This document shows, one piece after another, positions 13,577-58,095 of a stretch of 64,000 nt of DNA. A program made the translations under genes and the position numbers. Below the pieces are notes generated by a model. The model searched no databases and had not been told where the DNA came from. It was given only the letters and a program-made list of their open reading frames with translations. Positions within the stretch are counted from its first letter, which is position 1. Every line of letters begins with the position of its first letter. Source of the stretch: Candidatus Poribacteria bacterium. GTDB taxonomy: Bacteria; Poribacteria; WGA-4E; WGA-3G. Location of the stretch: assembly GCA_958295945.1 (NCBI GenBank), contig OY282386.1:682001-746000 (forward strand), given 5' to 3'.

Positions 13577-14822
13577 GTGGAGTGTCTACACTAAAATTAT
13601 AGGTATATTCTTCAATAAAACTTGCCAAACAGACGTATTTCTTTTAGAATGTCCCTAAATACTTCTTTAAGGAATAGTCTCTTGAAAAAGAAATATATAG
13701 TTGAATTAACTGATATTGAGCGTGAAGAACTAAACAAGTATATAAGTAAAGGAGAAAATAAAGCGTATAAGATCAGGCATGCACACATCTTATTGAAATC
13801 CGATGTAAATGGTCCTCGCTGGACTGATAAGCAGATAGCTGAAGCTTACTCGTGTCATGAGCAGACGGTTTACAATGTGCGGCATCGTTTTGTAGAAAAG
13901 GGTTTATCGGGAGCGTTGGATCGAGTGCACCGCAAAACACCTCCGTGTCCTCGAAAGTTGGATGGTGAAGCAGAAGCGCGTCTGATTGCGTTGAGTTGTA
14001 GCGAACCGCCTGAAGGCTATAGCAGGTGGTCCCTTCGTCTTCTTGCTTCGGAATTCGTGAAGCTTGAAATCGTTGAGAGTATTTGTTCTGAAACAGTGCG
14101 CCAGACGCTAAAAAAAACGAACTAAAGCCACACCTGGTGGAACAATGGGTAATCCCACCCACCGAAAATGCTGAGTTTGTCGCAGCAATGGAAGAAGTGC
14201 TTGATCTCTATCAGAAACCTTTAGACACAGATGTGCCGGTTGTGAATATGGATGAACAACCTGTAACGTTGAGGGATGATATTCGCGAGCCGTGCCCCCT
14301 CAAACCGGGTCAAGTCAAGCGTGTAGATAATGAATATAGACGCAATGGCACAGCACAACTTTTCATATTCACAGAAGCACTAACGGGGTGGAGAGGCGTG
14401 TCTGTGCGTGAGCGTCGGACTGCGGTGGATTGGGCACAAGAGGTAAAGGTGCTATTAGACGAGGTGTATCCGAAAGCAAAACGAGTGATTTTAGTTTGTG
14501 ATAATCTGAATACACATAAAGTTTCATCCTTGTATAAAGCGTTTCCAGCAGCGGAAGCACGCCGTTTATGTGCTCGTTTAGAAATCGTGTATACGCCCAA
14601 ACATGGAAGTTGGTTGAATATTGCTGAGATAGAACTTAGCGTGCTAACACGACAATGTTTAGGTCGTCGCATCCCTGATATAGAAACACTACGACGAGAG
14701 ACACAAGCTTGGGAAAAAAGACGAAATGGTGAAGCGAAGCAAGTAGACTGGCAATGGACAACGGATGATGCTCGCATCCGATTGAAACGCTTATACCCAC
14801 AATTTTAGTGTGGACAGTCTAC
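13577..14822 (+). mobile_element. IS630-type insertion sequence (1246 bp)
   Basis: The ends GTGGAGTGTCTACACTAAAA (left) and, on the other strand, GTAGACTGTCCACACTAAAA (right) match at 19 of 22 positions and are flanked by TA (13575-13576 and 14823-14824), the IS630/Tc1 target. The host sequence is a hairpin-repeat region (AGTGGTTTTCAACCACG just to the left). Confidence 0.9.
13682..14808 (+). CDS. IS630-family transposase in two frames joined at an A8 run
   Basis: TTG 13682 follows TAAGGAATAG and gives the usual KKKYIVELTDIEREEL start; an ATG at 13649 in the same frame is possible. Frame 1 holds the helix-turn-helix domain (RWTDKQIAEAYSCHEQTVYNV) and ends at 14125. Frame 2 gives the DDE catalytic domain with NMDEQ, LVCDNLNTH and SWLNIAEIE. 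A -1 shift at the eight A residues 14110-14117 joins them as TLKKNELKPHLVEQW, the expected family sequence. Programmed slippage is likely, and both halves look intact. Confidence 0.85.
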
Positions 14823-14876
14823 TAGTGATACCGGTAGGAATGCATATAATTGATGCTAAGTCATGAGGTGAATACA

Positions 14877-16181
14877 ATGGACGATTTACAAACTGTTCAA
14901 ACAGATAACTCTATCCCTGCGAAATTAGTGGAATTAGAATTTTCAGATGGCACACTGCACACAAGGGACGGACCTCATCCGTATCTACAAACAATATTTG
15001 GAGTGAGTGACAAATATCTTAGACGCTTGTTTAATGAAGATCAACTAAACGAATTTAAAACGGATTGCCTTCAAAATATTCGTGGTGATAGGAATTTGAC
15101 AATAGAACAATACATTAACAAATACTACGAATTTGTAAAAAGAGAATATCAAAAACAATATATCGGTGCCGAATCTTCTCTAAATCAATTTATATTTTCC
15201 GATCCTGAAAAACCGAAAGCGTTATGGGGTGACTGCCTTGGTTTTTTGCAGCGTATGGACAGTGAGAGCGTTCAGTTAATGGTCACTTCTCCACCATATT
15301 ATAATGCACGAGATTATTCACAGTGGGAAAACCTGGATGACTACCTGGATGAAATGTCTTGTATTATCAAGGAGTGTTATCGGGTCCTGGACAACCATCG
15401 CCCTTTTGTTTTTAATGTCGGTGATATATTTGATAACGACAATAGACATACCAAATCTACTTGGGGAAAGCGAAGGATTCCTCTGGGAGCATATTTCACC
15501 GCAATATTTGAAGAACACGGTTTCCAATTTGTTGATGACTTCATTTGGGACAAGGGAGAAGTTCAAACACAGCGACATAAAAATGGAGATAGACCTTACC
15601 CTTTATATCAATATCCAGTAAACTGTTATGAACATATTTTTGTCTTCTATAAACATCGATTGGATGAAACGCCTTATCCTTGTCCAATATGCGGATGTTT
15701 GAAAGTCAATGGGAATGCGTACTCCAGAGTGGGTGTCAAATCTTGGGAATGTAAGAATTTAGAATGTTTTGAACGGTCAACAGCTAATCGTGGTAAACGT
15801 TTTTCAGCACGTACGCAGTTAATGACCGGATTGCAACAACAGGAGAATCTTGTTCCTGAGAATTTACTCCAAATGTGGCGGCGCGATATAGTCAAATTCG
15901 CACCAATAATAAAGATAAATAGCAAAGGTCAAAACACTCTTGGTCATACTGCTCCCTTTCCAAACGAAATTCCTGAATACGCAGTAAAAGTTTTCACGGG
16001 TGTGAATGAATCGGTCCTTGATCCTTTTGCTGGTTCGTTTACCACAACAATAGAAGCATTTCGACAAGGACGAAATAGCATTGGAATGGAACTGAATAGG
16101 ACGTTGTTTAGAGATGCCGTGCAAATTCGGTTTTCAAAGGAGCTTAATACGTTACCAGTAGAGTTAGGAGATGGTAAATGA
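14877..16181 (+). CDS. Beta-class (TSPPY) DNA methyltransferase of a restriction-modification-like pair
   Basis: ATG 14877 follows GAGGTGAATACA. The 434-aa protein has TSPPY at 137-141 before the SAM motif DPFAGSFTT (from 382), the permuted order of beta-class N4-cytosine or N6-adenine methylases. An insert near residue 270 carries a zinc-ribbon-like CPICG...CKNLEC. The N-terminal 100 residues form an extra helical domain. It overlaps the next gene by four bases (ATGA), so the two form one unit. The modified base and site are not readable. The gene lies immediately after the IS630 element. Confidence 0.87.
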   Translation: MDDLQTVQTDNSIPAKLVELEFSDGTLHTRDGPHPYLQTIFGVSDKYLRRLFNEDQLNEFKTDCLQNIRGDRNLTIEQYINKYYEFVKREYQKQYIGAESSLNQFIFSDPEKPKALWGDCLGFLQRMDSESVQLMVTSPPYYNARDYSQWENLDDYLDEMSCIIKECYRVLDNHRPFVFNVGDIFDNDNRHTKSTWGKRRIPLGAYFTAIFEEHGFQFVDDFIWDKGEVQTQRHKNGDRPYPLYQYPVNCYEHIFVFYKHRLDETPYPCPICGCLKVNGNAYSRVGVKSWECKNLECFERSTANRGKRFSARTQLMTGLQQQENLVPENLLQMWRRDIVKFAPIIKINSKGQNTLGHTAPFPNEIPEYAVKVFTGVNESVLDPFAGSFTTTIEAFRQGRNSIGMELNRTLFRDAVQIRFSKELNTLPVELGDGK

Positions 16182-16816
16182 ATGAATCAAAAGGTGCCAA
16201 GCGCGTTATTGGACTTTATGGAGAGATGCGATTAGCAATGGAACTCCATAAACGAGGATGGCAGGTTTACAGCGCGTATATTGACGAGAAATATGATTTT
16301 GTCATTTTGAAAAGTTACTGTGAATCCTGCAAAGCATTCAAGAACGCATGGACGCGTGAACAACCTTATGGTAAAAGCACACACAAAACGGTAACCCCGC
16401 TTTGTGAGACATGTAAAAAAGACAGTCTGAAAATGCTTGTCAGATTTATTCAGGTCAAGACTTCAGAAGGAATCACTGGCAAGAAAACAAAATCGGGAGA
16501 CGTAGACAAAAGGTATAGTTTCCAGGCTAAAATTCGCTATCACTTAGCAGATGCCAGAATATTTTACGCGTGGATCCAAGTCTGGGACGAAGATAACGTC
16601 AATTACTACATATTCAAAACTGAAGACGTAGCACTTTTTGATGATTTGCAGATAGCCTCTTATCAGATAACCGATAATCAGAAAACGACACTGAGAATAA
16701 ACAAAGATGGAGAAGTGCTAAATCAGGGAAAGAAATACGATTACAGTGCATTTGAAGATTTCCTCAACAATTTTGATTGTTTGGAAGAGATAATTAATGG
16801 TGATGATTGGAAGTAA
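16178..16816 (+). CDS. Putative restriction endonuclease, PD-(D/E)xK fold with zinc ribbon
   Basis: The 212-aa product overlaps the methylase gene by ATGA. It has an early helix with GEMRLAMEL (E16), YDFVI (D40) and FIQVKTS (Q92, K94), an E...D...QxK arrangement typical of PD-(D/E)xK nucleases. Between D40 and K94 sits a four-cysteine ribbon (C48, C51, C76, C79). A later segment (YHLADARIFYAWIQVW) gives the fold's further strands. With the methylase it would make a type II system: the nuclease cuts unmodified DNA, the methylase protects the host. No named family was recognised; the nuclease call is from motif order and context. Confidence 0.65.
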   Translation: MNESKGAKRVIGLYGEMRLAMELHKRGWQVYSAYIDEKYDFVILKSYCESCKAFKNAWTREQPYGKSTHKTVTPLCETCKKDSLKMLVRFIQVKTSEGITGKKTKSGDVDKRYSFQAKIRYHLADARIFYAWIQVWDEDNVNYYIFKTEDVALFDDLQIASYQITDNQKTTLRINKDGEVLNQGKKYDYSAFEDFLNNFDCLEEIINGDDWK

Positions 16817-16887: not shown

Positions 16888-17229
16888 ATGTCCAAAATAG
16901 AAGATTTTGCTTTTTATGGTGCTTCTGGACACCAATATATTTTTCAAGTCTATCCTATTGAAACAGAATTCAAAGATATTGGAGGCGTTTACATCTTCAC
17001 AAGGCGTGAGATAAATACCAGTGGCAATATCATGCATAATCTTTTGTACATTGGTCAGACGATTTCGCTCCCGATCAGACTCAATAGATTACATCATAAA
17101 TGGGAGGCAGTTTTGCGAAATCGGGGTAATTGTGTGTGTGTTTACTCAGAACTGAACAATCGGAATAGAAACAAAATTGAAGATGATCTAATTCGTAAAT
17201 ATCAACCGCCCCTTAATAGTAGATTGTAA
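16888..17229 (+). CDS. GIY-YIG domain protein, coupled to a membrane protein
   Basis: ATG 16888 follows AGGATAAAACC. The 113-aa protein is essentially one GIY-YIG domain: GVYIF (33-37), LLYIGQT (52-58), an Arg-rich helix (PIRLNRLHH, R64), a conserved Glu in NKIEDDLIRKYQPPLN (E98) and the closing Asn. Family members are single-domain nucleases or nuclease-derived binding proteins. Its stop TAA shares a base with the ATG of the next gene (TAATG), a sign of coupled translation. A second, diverged GIY-YIG gene at 42507 sits beside a homologue of that same membrane protein. Confidence 0.75.
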   Translation: MSKIEDFAFYGASGHQYIFQVYPIETEFKDIGGVYIFTRREINTSGNIMHNLLYIGQTISLPIRLNRLHHKWEAVLRNRGNCVCVYSELNNRNRNKIEDDLIRKYQPPLNSRL

Positions 17230-17735
17230 TGAAAAGTTTTACTAGACGTTACTGGCGATTCATTGTCCGTTTATGGGGCAATATGAATCGTTTTGGGCAG
17301 TTCGTGAGAAGTTTTTGGCGTAAAAACAAAGCAGGTGTTGCTCTGTCTTTACTTACAGTTGTGGTTGGCGTTTACACATACATTATTGTAAATTCCCAAG
17401 TAGGACAGACATGGAAACAAGATATAGCAGATATTTCTACTTTTGTCCCTGTTGCTGGGGTAATTGTAGGTGCAATAATAGGAGTTATTGATTTTATTAT
17501 GTTTTTATCTGATTGGTATAGCGAACTACAACAGAAACGAATTAAGGAAGCTGAAGCTGAAGGTCTTGCTAAAGGAACGGCAAAATATTACGCTGCGGTT
17601 AAAGATTGGAATGACCGCAGAATTGAGGCGGAAAACAAAGGTGAGGATTTTGACGAACCTATGCCAACTCCGCAGAATATACAAGAAGCAACCCCTGTTG
17701 AACAAACTGATGATGACCATGCTGTTGATGATTAA
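17229..17735 (+). CDS. Two-helix membrane protein with AEG linker and WNDRRIEAE tail
   Basis: The 168-aa product starts at ATG 17229, overlapping the GIY-YIG stop codon. It has a basic N-terminus, helices at about 36-54 and 72-94, then LSDWYSELQQKR, a charged AEAEGLAKG linker and the tail WNDRRIEAENKGEDFDEPMP. The stretch FVPVAGV...DFIMFLSDWY..L..KR matches the protein at 41807-42316, and the linker and tail match the one at 51005-51496. No known family is recognised. It is an inner-membrane protein with a cytoplasmic charged tail by the positive-inside pattern. Confidence 0.75.
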   Translation: MKSFTRRYWRFIVRLWGNMNRFGQFVRSFWRKNKAGVALSLLTVVVGVYTYIIVNSQVGQTWKQDIADISTFVPVAGVIVGAIIGVIDFIMFLSDWYSELQQKRIKEAEAEGLAKGTAKYYAAVKDWNDRRIEAENKGEDFDEPMPTPQNIQEATPVEQTDDDHAVDD

Positions 17736-17777: not shown

Positions 17778-18734
17778 ATGGCGGAAATGAAAAAAGACTT
17801 GAAACCGATTGACATGTCTTCTGTGAAGACATACCCACTTAAAGAACGTATCAACAAAGTTTCTGTTAACGATTTTGCGACACTCCCAGACTTAAAAGTG
17901 GAGCTTACTCCGTTTTTGGCATCCCTGCCAAAGATTCTCAAAGGACAAGATTTTACTGAACTCATTGACAAGATTGTTGCTGCACATCAACGGAAAAAGG
18001 CAGTAATTGTAATGATGGGTGGACATGTCATTAAGTGCGGTTTAACACCGCTATTGATCGCATTGGTTGAACGCGGAGTCATTACAGGTTTCGCATTCAA
18101 TGGTGCAAGCAGCATACACGATTTTGAAATTGCACTCATCGGTGAAACCTCTGAAGATGTTTCTGAATACCTAAAAACCGGTCAATTCGGCATGTGGGAG
18201 GAAACGGGAAGGTTCATGAATGAAGCGATCCAAAATGCTGCAGATACTGGCATCGGAATGGGGGAGGCATTAGGGAAGAAGTTGATAGCGATAGACGCAC
18301 CATACAACGATTACAGTCTCCTCGCGGCAGGTATTCAACACAACATTCCGATTACAGTGCATGTTGCGATTGGCACGGATATTATACATCAACATCCATC
18401 GGCAAACGGTGCTGCTATTGGTGAAGCAAGTTTTACCGACTTTCGTCTGTTGACACAACTTGTTACGGAGTTAGAAGATGGTGGGGTCGTGCTTAACTTC
18501 GGTTCGGCTGTTATATTACCAGAGGTATTTCTGAAAGCTGTGACAATTGCAAGGAATTTAGGGCATACTGTGTCTAACTTCACTGCTGCCGACTTTGATA
18601 TGCTTCAGCAATATCGTGCTGTGGAGAATGTCGTCAAACGACCGACTGAGATGGGTGGGAAAGGATACACGTTCACCGGACATCATGAGTTGATGATACC
18701 GCTTTTGGTGCAGTCGGTTCTTGCTCGGCTGTAG
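17778..18734 (+). CDS. Deoxyhypusine synthase-like protein
   Basis: The chosen ATG is 17778; a GTG just before it and an ATG at 17787 are also possible because the ribosome site is weak. The 318-aa protein has the family's Rossmann-type motifs: VIVMMGGHVIKCGLTPLLI, FNGASSIHDFEIALIGETSEDV, GMWEETGRFMN and LNFGSAVILPEVFLKA. Eukaryotic and archaeal deoxyhypusine synthase moves the aminobutyl group of spermidine onto eIF5A. Bacterial relatives often act on free polyamines, and some have unknown roles. The catalytic lysine motif of true synthases is not obvious, so function is uncertain. Confidence 0.7.
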   Translation: MAEMKKDLKPIDMSSVKTYPLKERINKVSVNDFATLPDLKVELTPFLASLPKILKGQDFTELIDKIVAAHQRKKAVIVMMGGHVIKCGLTPLLIALVERGVITGFAFNGASSIHDFEIALIGETSEDVSEYLKTGQFGMWEETGRFMNEAIQNAADTGIGMGEALGKKLIAIDAPYNDYSLLAAGIQHNIPITVHVAIGTDIIHQHPSANGAAIGEASFTDFRLLTQLVTELEDGGVVLNFGSAVILPEVFLKAVTIARNLGHTVSNFTAADFDMLQQYRAVENVVKRPTEMGGKGYTFTGHHELMIPLLVQSVLARL

Positions 18735-41806: not shown

Positions 41807-42316
41807 TTATTGAGGATTTTTCGGCGGAGGCGAGGCAGATTCATCGGGAGTGATTTCTTCTGCTTCCTGTTTAACTTCTGATTGATAAGCTGACCAAAAG
41901 ACTGACCACAACTGTCTTTCTGCAGCTTTACCTTCAGCAATCCCTTCCTCTTTAACTTTTTGATCACGCTTTTCTCGTAAGTCTTTATACCAGTCAGATA
42001 ATAACATGATTAAATCAATCTCCAATATATGTATTGCGGTAAAAACTCCCGCAACAGGGATAAATGCTGATATTTCCTTTAATAGATTTTGAAACGACTT
42101 GTATCCATTCCAACCGTTCTCAATTTCATATTCAATAGCGATAGTACCGTGGGAGATGGAGTACACAAAAATTAGTAGAATGGTGACAGCTGCTTTACCT
42201 TTATCCCAATAATCTCTGAGATATTGCCAAAATTCTTCCAGTTTTTGCAACTGCTTTTTCAATCTTCTATCACTCCGAATTTCCTTTCTCTTATATCTCT
42301 TATAAAGATAGCACAT
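41807..42316 (-). CDS. Two-helix membrane protein, paralogue of the 17229 gene
   Basis: The 169-aa product has a long basic, coiled N-terminus (RSDRRLKKQLQKLEEFWQYL), helices at about 43-60 and 84-106, then the conserved block FIPVAGV...LIMLLSDWYKDLREKR and an EEGIAEGKAAE linker. This block matches FVPVAGV...DFIMFLSDWYSELQQKR of the 17229 protein. The WNDRRIEAE tail is not kept; instead it has WSAYQSEVKQEAEE and a Pro-rich end. It lies divergently next to a GIY-YIG gene (42507), just as its paralogue sits beside one. No known family. Confidence 0.7.
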   Translation of the reverse strand: MCYLYKRYKRKEIRSDRRLKKQLQKLEEFWQYLRDYWDKGKAAVTILLIFVYSISHGTIAIEYEIENGWNGYKSFQNLLKEISAFIPVAGVFTAIHILEIDLIMLLSDWYKDLREKRDQKVKEEGIAEGKAAERQLWSVFWSAYQSEVKQEAEEITPDESASPPPKNPQ

Positions 42317-42506
42317 AAAGAACGTCTAAGTCAAACAAATTACAGTCGGGTACGTGAAATGGAGATTTTACTGTGCATAATAATCCAAATATGGTATCAT
42401 GTAATTTTGAATATTATGTAACAATTTTGCATTATACTTGCCTAGCCTTCACAGTAAAAAAGTTGTGGATGATCGGTTAAAATACAGTTGGACATCGGAG
42501 GTAAAC

Positions 42507-42863
42507 ATGAATGTCTATTGGATTAGATGCCAAAACAATGCATGGTGTTCACTCAGTACACTTAATTTGAGTCACGAACACTTTGACAACTTGCGAGGAA
42601 TTTACATTATCTGGTATTGGCAAAATAAAGATAATCCCAGAACGGTCAAGGTTGGTCAAGGAATGATCAGAGAAAGACTAACAGCCCATCGTGCAGATAA
42701 TCGGATTCAAAGTTATGCTGATCGGGGGTTGTACGTTACTTGGACTAATTTACCGCCGCATTTACTTGCTGGTGTGGAAAGGTATCTCGGTGATGCACTT
42801 CAACCTCTTGAAGGTTATTTATTTCCAGATGAACCTCCTATTCCCGTAAATCTTCCTTGGTAA
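42507..42863 (+). CDS. GIY-YIG-like domain protein, second locus
   Basis: ATG 42507 follows CGGAGGTAAAC. The 118-aa product has RGIYIIWY (GIY strand, residues 31-35), TVKVGQG (YIG-like, 47-52), an Arg pair (R55, R57) and a helix with Glu (LLAGVERYLGDALQP, E91). It is diverged from the 16888 protein but has the same domain length and the same type of neighbour, a two-helix membrane protein (here on the opposite strand, 190 bases away). It is likely a nuclease or a nuclease-derived binding domain. Confidence 0.65.
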   Translation: MNVYWIRCQNNAWCSLSTLNLSHEHFDNLRGIYIIWYWQNKDNPRTVKVGQGMIRERLTAHRADNRIQSYADRGLYVTWTNLPPHLLAGVERYLGDALQPLEGYLFPDEPPIPVNLPW

Positions 42864-50967: not shown

Positions 50968-50996
50968 TTGTTAAATGGCATGATATATGGTATAAT
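50968..50996 (+). promoter_or_regulatory. Promoter giving a nearly leaderless message
   Basis: TTGTTA (50968-50973), a 17-base spacer and TATAAT (50991-50996). The ATG at 51005 is only 8 bases beyond the -10 box, so the transcript should start at or just before it. Confidence 0.7.
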
Positions 50997-51004
50997 TGAA
51001 AACT

Positions 51005-51496
51005 ATGTCAAGCAATGTTAATGAAAACGATTTTGTGTCTTTAGTTAGAATATCTCGTAAATGGTTTAATCTATTTGTATGGTTGTTTTCAACTTTAATA
51101 ATTGCGAATATTTTGGTAGAATTGCTGACTGATTGGGCTTGGAAAGATTTAGGGGAAACAACGTCAACACGAACAGCAAATTTAATGGCGTTAATAGTTG
51201 GTTGGTTTTTTATTACATCACATATATGGGAGGTAGTCATGTTAGGGTATGCAAAGATGTTTAAGGATAGGGTTTTTGCCGAGGGGAAGGCTGTTGGCAT
51301 AGCCGAGGGGAAAGTTGAAGGTATAGCTGAGGGGAAAGTTGAAGGTATAGCTGAGGGGAAAGTTGAAGGTATAGCTGAACAGTACCACCTTGTCCTTGAA
51401 TGGAATCGTAGGAGAATACAGGCAGAAAAGGAAGGCAGGGAATTTTCAGAACCTATACCTACTCCAGAAGATACCTTAAATTCCGATAAGTCTTGA
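51005..51496 (+). CDS. Membrane protein with perfect AEGKVEGI repeats, third paralogue
   Basis: The 163-aa product starts at ATG 51005 with an apparently leaderless transcript. It has two helices (about 21-41 and 60-82), then AEGKAVGI and three AEGKVEGI repeats, and the tail WNRRRIQAEKEGREFSEPIP. The tail matches WNDRRIEAENKGEDFDEPMP of the 17229 protein. The repeats are encoded by a 24-bp tandem repeat, nearly identical at DNA level. No GIY-YIG gene is adjacent here. Family unknown; cytoplasmic charged tail inferred. Confidence 0.7.
   Translation: MSSNVNENDFVSLVRISRKWFNLFVWLFSTLIIANILVELLTDWAWKDLGETTSTRTANLMALIVGWFFITSHIWEVVMLGYAKMFKDRVFAEGKAVGIAEGKVEGIAEGKVEGIAEGKVEGIAEQYHLVLEWNRRRIQAEKEGREFSEPIPTPEDTLNSDKS
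51280..51375 (+). repeat. 24-bp in-frame tandem repeat
   Basis: Units of 24 bases of the form GCTGAGGGGAAAGTTGAAGG plus TATA occur four times in phase (the first with GCTGTTGGC). Copy-number change by slippage would lengthen or shorten the protein linker without changing frame. Confidence 0.8.
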
Positions 51497-56786: not shown

Positions 56787-56973
56787 CAATCTTCGGGCAG
56801 GAGACCCAATCCTTTAGGTTTGGGAGGAATGCCCGTTCCTATATTTTTCTTGACAAACTATGTCATATATGTTACGATATTCTCAGCATTGTTGGTAGAG
56901 AATACGATCCACCTTGCTTGAGGTGGTCTCCACCAAAACCGAATCGTGTCGGAAGCAATACTTGAGTAAAACA

Positions 56974-58095
56974 ATGCGCACCTACAAATACAAGATACGC
57001 AATCACAAAAAGAACAAACGCTTCGGCAATCTGCTTGATGATCTTTGTGATGTGCACAACCACTTTTTGCGTTTGGAAAAACGTTATTACCGCAGATACG
57101 AAAAATACGCTGGTAGATATAGGCTGCAACCGCATCTTACCAAGTTGCTCAAGACGACCAAGAAACATTGGGCTTGGATACCGCGTGACACTTTGGATGC
57201 TGCGATTATTCGCATAGATGCTGCATATCAACGCTTCTTTGCTGGTCAAGGTGGACTTCCTAAATTCAAACGTAAATATCGTTATCGTTCTGCGAAGTTT
57301 CAAACAGGCTACAAACTTGAAAATGGTCGTGTGTGTATCTCTTTCAAGTCGTGGAATGACACCACACAATCTCTGAAATTCAATCGTCGCTGGTTTTCTT
57401 TTCACCAACACCGAGACTGGCACGGCACTGTCCGCTATGTCCAAATACTCCGTGATAGTGCCGGTGAATACTGGCTTTACATTGTCACCGATGATACTTC
57501 TACCGAACCTATGCAACAAACAGGTGAGAGCGTAGGTATAGACTTCGGGTTGAAAACATTTTTGACATTGAGCATTGGTGAAAAGATACAAGCACCAGAA
57601 TTCTTGAAACAATCTTTGAAACACCTTCGCAAACTGAATAAAGCTGTGAGTCGTAAAGTCAAAGGGTCTAACAATTGGTATCGCGCTATTAGAGAACTCG
57701 CACGGCATTATATCAAAATAGCAAACCAACGGCTTGACTGGCAGTGGAAACTTGCTACAGACTTGTGCAGAAGGTTTGATACGATTGCTGCTGAAACGTT
57801 GAACCTTAATGGCATGAAGCGGTTGTGGGGACGTAAAGTCTCCGATCTCGGATTTTACCAGTTTATTCAATTGTTGGCATTCAAATGTTTCAAACATCAT
57901 AAAGTATTCTTTCAAGTCGGACAATGGACACCTACTACAAAACCTTGTAGCAACTGCGGAGATAAAAACGACACTCTTTCTCTCAATGATAGACAGTGGA
58001 CATGTTCACAATGTAATTCCGAACATGATAGAGACATAAACGCTGCTATCAACATATTACGGGCTGCTTATGATCCCGTTGTGGAGCAGATGTGA
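56974..58095 (+). CDS. tnpB: TnpB RNA-guided nuclease
   Basis: ATG 56974 is chosen; the frame opens 20 codons upstream without a ribosome site. The 373-aa protein has the full TnpB plan: N-terminal wedge domain, RuvC motifs GIDFGLKTFLTL (D190), AAETLNLNG (E274) and HDRDINAAINIL (D354), and a zinc finger CSNC...CSQC (C325, C328, C344, C347). All three catalytic acids are present, so it should be active. TnpB cuts DNA under guidance of a transcript from the element's 3' end. No TnpA accompanies it. Confidence 0.9.
   Translation: MRTYKYKIRNHKKNKRFGNLLDDLCDVHNHFLRLEKRYYRRYEKYAGRYRLQPHLTKLLKTTKKHWAWIPRDTLDAAIIRIDAAYQRFFAGQGGLPKFKRKYRYRSAKFQTGYKLENGRVCISFKSWNDTTQSLKFNRRWFSFHQHRDWHGTVRYVQILRDSAGEYWLYIVTDDTSTEPMQQTGESVGIDFGLKTFLTLSIGEKIQAPEFLKQSLKHLRKLNKAVSRKVKGSNNWYRAIRELARHYIKIANQRLDWQWKLATDLCRRFDTIAAETLNLNGMKRLWGRKVSDLGFYQFIQLLAFKCFKHHKVFFQVGQWTPTTKPCSNCGDKNDTLSLNDRQWTCSQCNSEHDRDINAAINILRAAYDPVVEQM

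Follow-up and report, generated by a model that had tools for sequence, protein, structure and literature searches.

A GIY-YIG gene overlapping a two-helix membrane-protein gene in Candidatus Poribacteria: a candidate membrane-tethered nuclease pair

What might a single-domain GIY-YIG protein and a small membrane protein encoded by overlapping genes do together? This question is raised by a locus in a window (the whole stretch analysed) of 64,000 nucleotides from a Candidatus Poribacteria bacterium whose genome is a single contig of 5.34 Mb. A preliminary description of this DNA had placed the two genes at 16888-17735 with one base common to the stop and start codons, and the open reading frames bear this out: the stop codon TAA of the first gene (17227-17229) gives its last A to the ATG of the second. 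We call the two products GIY-K and MEMB-K. The features of this region are as follows.

14850-16181, + strand: type II DNA methyltransferase (N6_N4_Mtase; Pfam 2.2e-32, PADLOC MTase_II 1.9e-82)
16178-16816, + strand: probable restriction endonuclease directly upstream of GIY-K (PD-(D/E)XK-like motif by eye; no Pfam or PADLOC match)
16888-17229, + strand: GIY-K, single-domain GIY-YIG protein of 113 aa (active-site set Y35, Y54-x-G56, R64, E98 and N110)
17229-17735, + strand: MEMB-K, two-helix open reading frame of 168 aa with a basic N-terminus and an AEG-type helical tail

The overlapping pair and its linkage

The GIY-YIG fold proposed for GIY-K is confidently predicted (AlphaFold2 pLDDT 95.0, pTM 0.87). 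In a Foldseek search of the PDB, UvrC GIY-YIG domains take all of the top seven places, each with a probability of 1.00, although at E-values of 0.006 or worse, the domain being small. The closest solved fold is the N-terminal GIY-YIG domain of UvrC (1ycz, 1yd3), whose YIG, R, E and N positions were aligned with those of GIY-K by an hmmsearch profile search, and Y35, Y54, G56, R64 and H69 are invariant across 21 relatives. GIY-K thus has both the fold and the motif set of the GIY-YIG superfamily. Unlike UvrC, it stands alone as a domain, has an additional beta part at its N-terminus and lacks a UvrC context, and its matches to Pfam GIY_YIG_2 (PF20815, E 2.6e-4) and GIY-YIG (PF01541, E 0.01) are weak, both being below the curated cut-off. 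Judging from the model and the alignment, the fold and active-site residues of GIY-K are intact, and the protein is presumably a nuclease. A GIY-YIG homing endonuclease was considered and rejected: GIY-K is a single domain of 113 aa, and no recognition domain, intron or split host gene was seen.

The MEMB-K model is all-helical and of low confidence (pTM 0.29), and a fold search with it gave no meaningful match. Two hydrophobic segments are found in its close relatives. In MEMB-K itself the two hydrophobic helices and the AEG-type tail are followed by a W-N-D-R-R-x-E-A-E box and an acidic end, and by positive-inside reasoning the topology is probably N-in/C-in. NCBIfam and PHROGs contain no named family for GIY-K, for MEMB-K or for GIYB, the second GIY-YIG protein considered below.

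To define the distribution of the pair, 85 genomes of the phylum Poribacteria, most of them draft metagenome assemblies, were searched. GIY-K occurs at 10 loci (the window, L124, L130, L131, L132, L133, L134, the decayed L137, L153 and L203), and at all 10 of them MEMB-K or a remnant of it lies directly downstream. Six pairs are intact (window and L130-L134); these come from two genera, in four or more genomic contexts, and every one of them overlaps by 1 or 4 bases (TAATG or ATGA). Neither an intact MEMB-K without GIY-K nor a GIY-K without MEMB-K or its remnant was found among the 85 genomes, the sole MEMB-K outside a pair being a relic in genome G083 that has lost its 5' part. Both partners are also set apart in phylogeny. 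The MEMB-partnered GIY genes form one clade in the protein tree (SH-aLRT 98), and the GIY-partnered MEMB genes form a single clade (support 100) that is nested among the lone copies and has a long branch; across all 85 genomes, identity within MEMB-K is at least 67%, and the next MEMB protein reaches at most 53%. Both genes are under purifying selection, with a median dN/dS of 0.20 (GIY-K) and 0.19 (MEMB-K); since dS is similar, the constraint on the two is comparable.

A second pairing and the wider membrane-protein family

The window contains a second GIY-YIG/membrane-protein pair and a third membrane-protein gene.

41807-42316, - strand: MEMB protein of pair 2, 169 aa, in a separate MEMB clade (support 100 with L161 in the tree)
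42317-42506: spacer between the diverging genes of pair 2, containing AATATGGTATCAT, which is conserved in L161 (by eye)
42507-42863, + strand: GIYB, diverged GIY-YIG protein of 118 aa, in which the YIG tyrosine is replaced (TVKVG)
50996-51496, + strand: lone MEMB paralogue, the third in the window, with an expanded AEG tail and no GIY-YIG neighbour

The head-to-head arrangement described for 41807-42863 agrees with the open reading frames, except that the GIY-YIG start has been moved: 42507 is preferred to 42438, because an RBS-like GGAGGT precedes it and the homologues start there. GIYB read from this start shows the GIY-YIG motif pattern with the YIG tyrosine missing, and has no Pfam match at E<=1. 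The loss of this tyrosine makes nuclease activity of pair 2 doubtful. The membrane proteins of the two pairs are homologous (33% identical) and have in common the block F-PVAGV...IM-LSDWY--L--KR with the AEG part, as had been noticed from the window alone, and also a tail region with a conserved tryptophan.

The head-to-head arrangement of pair 2 is found again in another genus (genome G059, locus L161), with 67% DNA identity over both genes and the spacer; the homology stops at the gene ends, and the genes outside differ. Its MEMB clade (support 100) is not sister to MEMB-K, and GIYB is a different GIY-YIG subtype from GIY-K, so that the MEMB family has been joined to GIY-YIG genes twice, independently and in two layouts. 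This double pairing is the best argument that the association has a functional meaning, subject to the caveat that GIYB lacks the YIG tyrosine.

At the level of the family, pairing is the exception. MEMB matches were found in 62 of the 85 genomes, all of them in a single order; one genome can have as many as 33. The genome of the window itself has 16, which correspond to about 11 genes and some fragments, along with six related GIY-YIG genes, but only two adjacent pairs, most of its MEMB matches having no GIY-YIG gene beside them. When about 30 of the top MEMB loci were read with their flanks, nearly all lone copies lay between housekeeping genes. Holding a GIY-YIG protein is, therefore, not the basic job of MEMB, and a universal GIY-YIG/MEMB pair is ruled out, since lone MEMB genes and other GIY-YIG neighbours are common. 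At 198-208 kb of the same genome (L023:8268-11660 and 18140-18628), about seven MEMB genes and fragments form a tandem array without GIY-YIG, in which two types alternate and the number of AEG repeats varies. The AEG tail of a lone paralogue matches weakly the FliH repeat region, suggesting a glycine-spaced packing helix.

The preliminary description had proposed a functional unit and had suggested a survey of the neighbours of both proteins, with wide separate occurrence counting against it. At the family level separate occurrence is indeed widespread, with lone MEMB genes and with other GIY-YIG subtypes that have other neighbours, and pairing is not a family-wide rule. For the GIY-K/MEMB-K subtype, adjacent in two genera and with no intact unpartnered copy in the 85 genomes, the pair stands, and the linkage at all 10 loci, the overlap, the cassette borders given below, the selection and the clades together argue for a unit; the case for pair 2, known from two genomes only, is weaker. 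The linkage of GIY-K and MEMB-K is more than chance, given these 10 loci and the recurrence of pair 2 in a second genus. The dependence is one-way: GIY-K is tied to MEMB-K, whereas many MEMB copies stand alone.

Surroundings and proposed role of the pair

Cassette copies in unlike contexts are homologous at the DNA level from a point near -175 until shortly after the MEMB stop codon; in the window and L133 the homology begins nearer, at -38 to -61. The two genes have been dispersed as a unit. A promoter-like sequence and a structured leader are present in those copies whose 5' part is long. For counting contexts, L130, L132 and L137 were treated as one orthologous site and L203 as the orthologue of the window site, which gives eight contexts, seven of them containing GIY-K and one the G083 relic. 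A defence-type gene lies within about 1.3 kb in five of these eight: a type II methyltransferase (window and L203), a D12 methyltransferase (L124), a type III methyltransferase (L131), a ZorD-like helicase-nuclease (L134) and a ResIII/DEAD helicase (L153). Three contexts are metabolic. By comparison, 20 lone-MEMB loci with 44 neighbour proteins gave no PADLOC match to restriction-modification or Zorya models. The difference gives a Fisher p of 0.022 when any PADLOC match is counted and 0.003 for methyltransferases and ZorD only, for eight contexts that were grouped after inspection. The RT-Protease_XI and dCTPase matches at the control loci are probably off-target matches to a protease and a deaminase.

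The closest functional analogue that we can name is SNIPE (PD-lambda-1), an inner-membrane-anchored GIY-YIG nuclease that cuts phage DNA during injection and that consists of a single chain with a TM segment, DUF4041 and GIY-YIG (PMC13190303). Without its TM segment SNIPE attacks the chromosome and is toxic to the host, and a predicted TM segment is missing in about a third of its homologues (PMC13190303). The cassette resembles SNIPE in combining a membrane part (here a proposed tether) with a GIY-YIG nuclease, in the helical segment between them and in the defence setting; GIY-K, in particular, has a GIY-YIG domain with the catalytic residues, as judged from its fold and sequence. It differs in consisting of two proteins, in having two TM helices, in the nuclease gene coming first and in its GIY-YIG subtype. 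Pfam scans found no DUF4041 in GIY-K or MEMB-K, and PF13250 has no match in the whole genome of the window; no GIY-K/MEMB-K fusion was seen, anchor and nuclease being on separate open reading frames. Since DUF4041 is missing and the chains are separate, membership in SNIPE is ruled out. The statement that no named system has this pair holds within the open-licence literature searched.

With the two ingredients of SNIPE on two chains encoded by overlapping genes, a membrane-tethered nuclease is the most likely role. The two genes would form a translationally coupled cassette. MEMB-K would sit in the inner membrane through its two helices, with the helical AEG tail in the cytoplasm, and would keep GIY-K at the membrane. 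The tethered GIY-K would then cut incoming DNA, which would most likely be that of phages, and the tethering would keep the nuclease off the chromosome. This would be a SNIPE-like action with tether and nuclease on separate chains, in a system that is no member of SNIPE. By analogy with SNIPE we consider this reading plausible, at somewhat under an even chance. From comparative evidence we infer the contact between GIY-K and MEMB-K, the topology, the nuclease activity, the incoming DNA as target and the protection against phage. The lack of a recognition domain such as DUF4041, by which foreign DNA could be picked, counts against a SNIPE-like role, as do the three metabolic contexts and the prevalence of lone MEMB genes. 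With respect to the earlier suggestion of a defence or DNA-uptake module, the defence part is favoured by gene context only, and the uptake part found no support.

The distribution of the cassette bears on the main alternative, in which the GIY-YIG protein promotes movement of the cassette by making breaks, the membrane gene being either a passenger or an anchor for cargo. The cassette is missing from most genomes and often decayed (L124, L137, L153, L203 and L237), it occupies at least seven unlike places, and its leader RNA is also found in front of TnpB genes. Absence and decay count against the tethered-nuclease reading, as selfish or intermittently selected genes would show them too. Selfish dispersal is, however, rendered unlikely by several observations: the 113-aa GIY-K has no DNA-recognition domain, lone MEMB copies have spread without any GIY-YIG, purifying selection is equal on GIY-K and MEMB-K, and no conserved right end is seen past the MEMB stop codon. 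As for spread beyond the phylum, a GIY profile scan of genome contigs found only Poribacteria and one relative in Lindowbacteria (43% identity), which has no MEMB neighbour, and there was no match in phage records (both proteins), plasmids (GIY-K) or viral contigs (GIY profile).

A toxin-antitoxin or abortive-infection system, with MEMB-K as a two-helix membrane effector triggered or restrained by the GIY-YIG protein, would also account for the overlapping two-gene layout, the patchy distribution, the decay of both partners and the defence neighbours. We regard it as quite unlikely, because MEMB is mostly lone with up to 33 matches per genome, which is not expected of an unrestrained toxin, and because GIY-K keeps a full nuclease active site; the likeness to type II toxin-antitoxin systems is in the two-gene layout only. 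Improbable, too, is an accessory role in which GIY-K and MEMB-K assist the neighbouring restriction-modification enzymes. The order methyltransferase-endonuclease-GIY-MEMB is kept in the window and in L203, the leader RNA of L203 lies in front of the methyltransferase, and type III and D12 methyltransferases adjoin other copies; but these partners are of unrelated types, and three contexts have none. Finally, membrane-linked processing of DNA from outside is suggested by the membrane-plus-nuclease architecture only and is very improbable, no competence genes having been noticed near any cassette copy.

SNIPE has shown that, by anchoring a nuclease at the membrane, a cell can distinguish incoming DNA from its own. 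If the tethered-nuclease reading is true, a split and independently assembled form would show membrane tethering to be a general strategy with tether and cutter as exchangeable modules, and the pair would offer, with just two proteins, a simple system for turning membrane recruitment on and off in experiments. SNIPE-like genes (DUF4041 with a C-terminal GIY-YIG region) were observed in 8 of the 85 Poribacteria genomes (L238-L241 and four more), so that both forms coexist in the phylum; in three of the four such genes read, a hydrophobic segment lies ahead of DUF4041. Two genomes (G031 and G058) have both a SNIPE-like gene and GIY-K/MEMB.

The leader RNA and the other GIY-YIG genes

Most GIY-K cassettes are preceded by a motif of 65-70 nt that forms two hairpins and a strongly covarying pseudoknot and directly follows a sigma70-like promoter. 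A search model based on eight copies finds it in 50 of the 85 genomes. In most of 30 loci its start lies about 40 bases downstream of where a near-consensus -35 box begins, so that the leader starts at the expected transcript start. The pseudoknot, in which the bulge of hairpin 1 pairs with the loop of hairpin 2, was not part of the search model; its positions are 97.3% paired, and it has 59 double-change cells against a mean of 16.9 after shuffling (0 of 500 shuffles as high), and slid versions are at most 48% paired. The motif has no match in Rfam 15. We conclude that it is a new RNA structure, which is directly testable and separate from the question of the cassette.

Besides GIY-K cassettes, the leader precedes the L203 restriction-modification methyltransferase, TnpB, a GIY-YIG gene (L213) and other genes. 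One copy and the gene that it fronts are in the window (other copies: L207-L236).

56890-56956, + strand: leader RNA copy fronting TnpB
56914-58095, + strand: TnpB-family RNA-guided endonuclease gene led by the leader RNA (NCBIfam guided_TnpB, 221 bits, cut-off 100)

The hairpin in front of TnpB raised the possibility of IS200/605-type mobility of the cassette, which was rejected, as there is no conserved right end and the motif lies right behind a promoter. In the window, transposase-like ORFs (by eye; 13622-14808) lie directly upstream of the methyltransferase, where L203 has its promoter and leader RNA (L203:8583-8734); an insertion may, therefore, have displaced the leader in the window. 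At several places, closely spaced leader copies are about 84 bases apart. At L210/L079 (G048:C93), the leader is followed by a 137-aa protein with one TM segment, a 72-aa protein and a GIYB-type gene. On a broader view, it is possible, and here tentatively proposed, that a two-gene, membrane-tethered GIY-YIG defence module arose at least twice in Poribacteria through recruitment of different GIY-YIG nucleases by the lineage-specific MEMB family, and that a mobile promoter, together with this new pseudoknotted 5'-leader RNA, drives the expression of several copies.

The related GIY-YIG genes of Poribacteria fall into subtypes, each with different fixed neighbours. These sister subtypes resemble GIY-K in having fixed neighbours, but their partners are other than MEMB. 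For example, a family that we call "MPYQESP" (phrog_34615, E 7.5e-24; no Pfam family; L031:5506-6462) recurs immediately behind another GIY-YIG subtype, and likewise behind two GIYB genes (downstream in L120, L122, L126-L129 and L160), a possible second GIY-YIG two-gene unit with the nuclease subtype exchanged. A third subtype occupies one fixed place at nine loci (L145-L147, L149-L152, L155 and L156), in most cases preceded by a HicB-like gene and in all cases followed by a histone-deacetylase-type gene, and another has an FRG-like/dehydrogenase locus as its neighbour (all names by eye).
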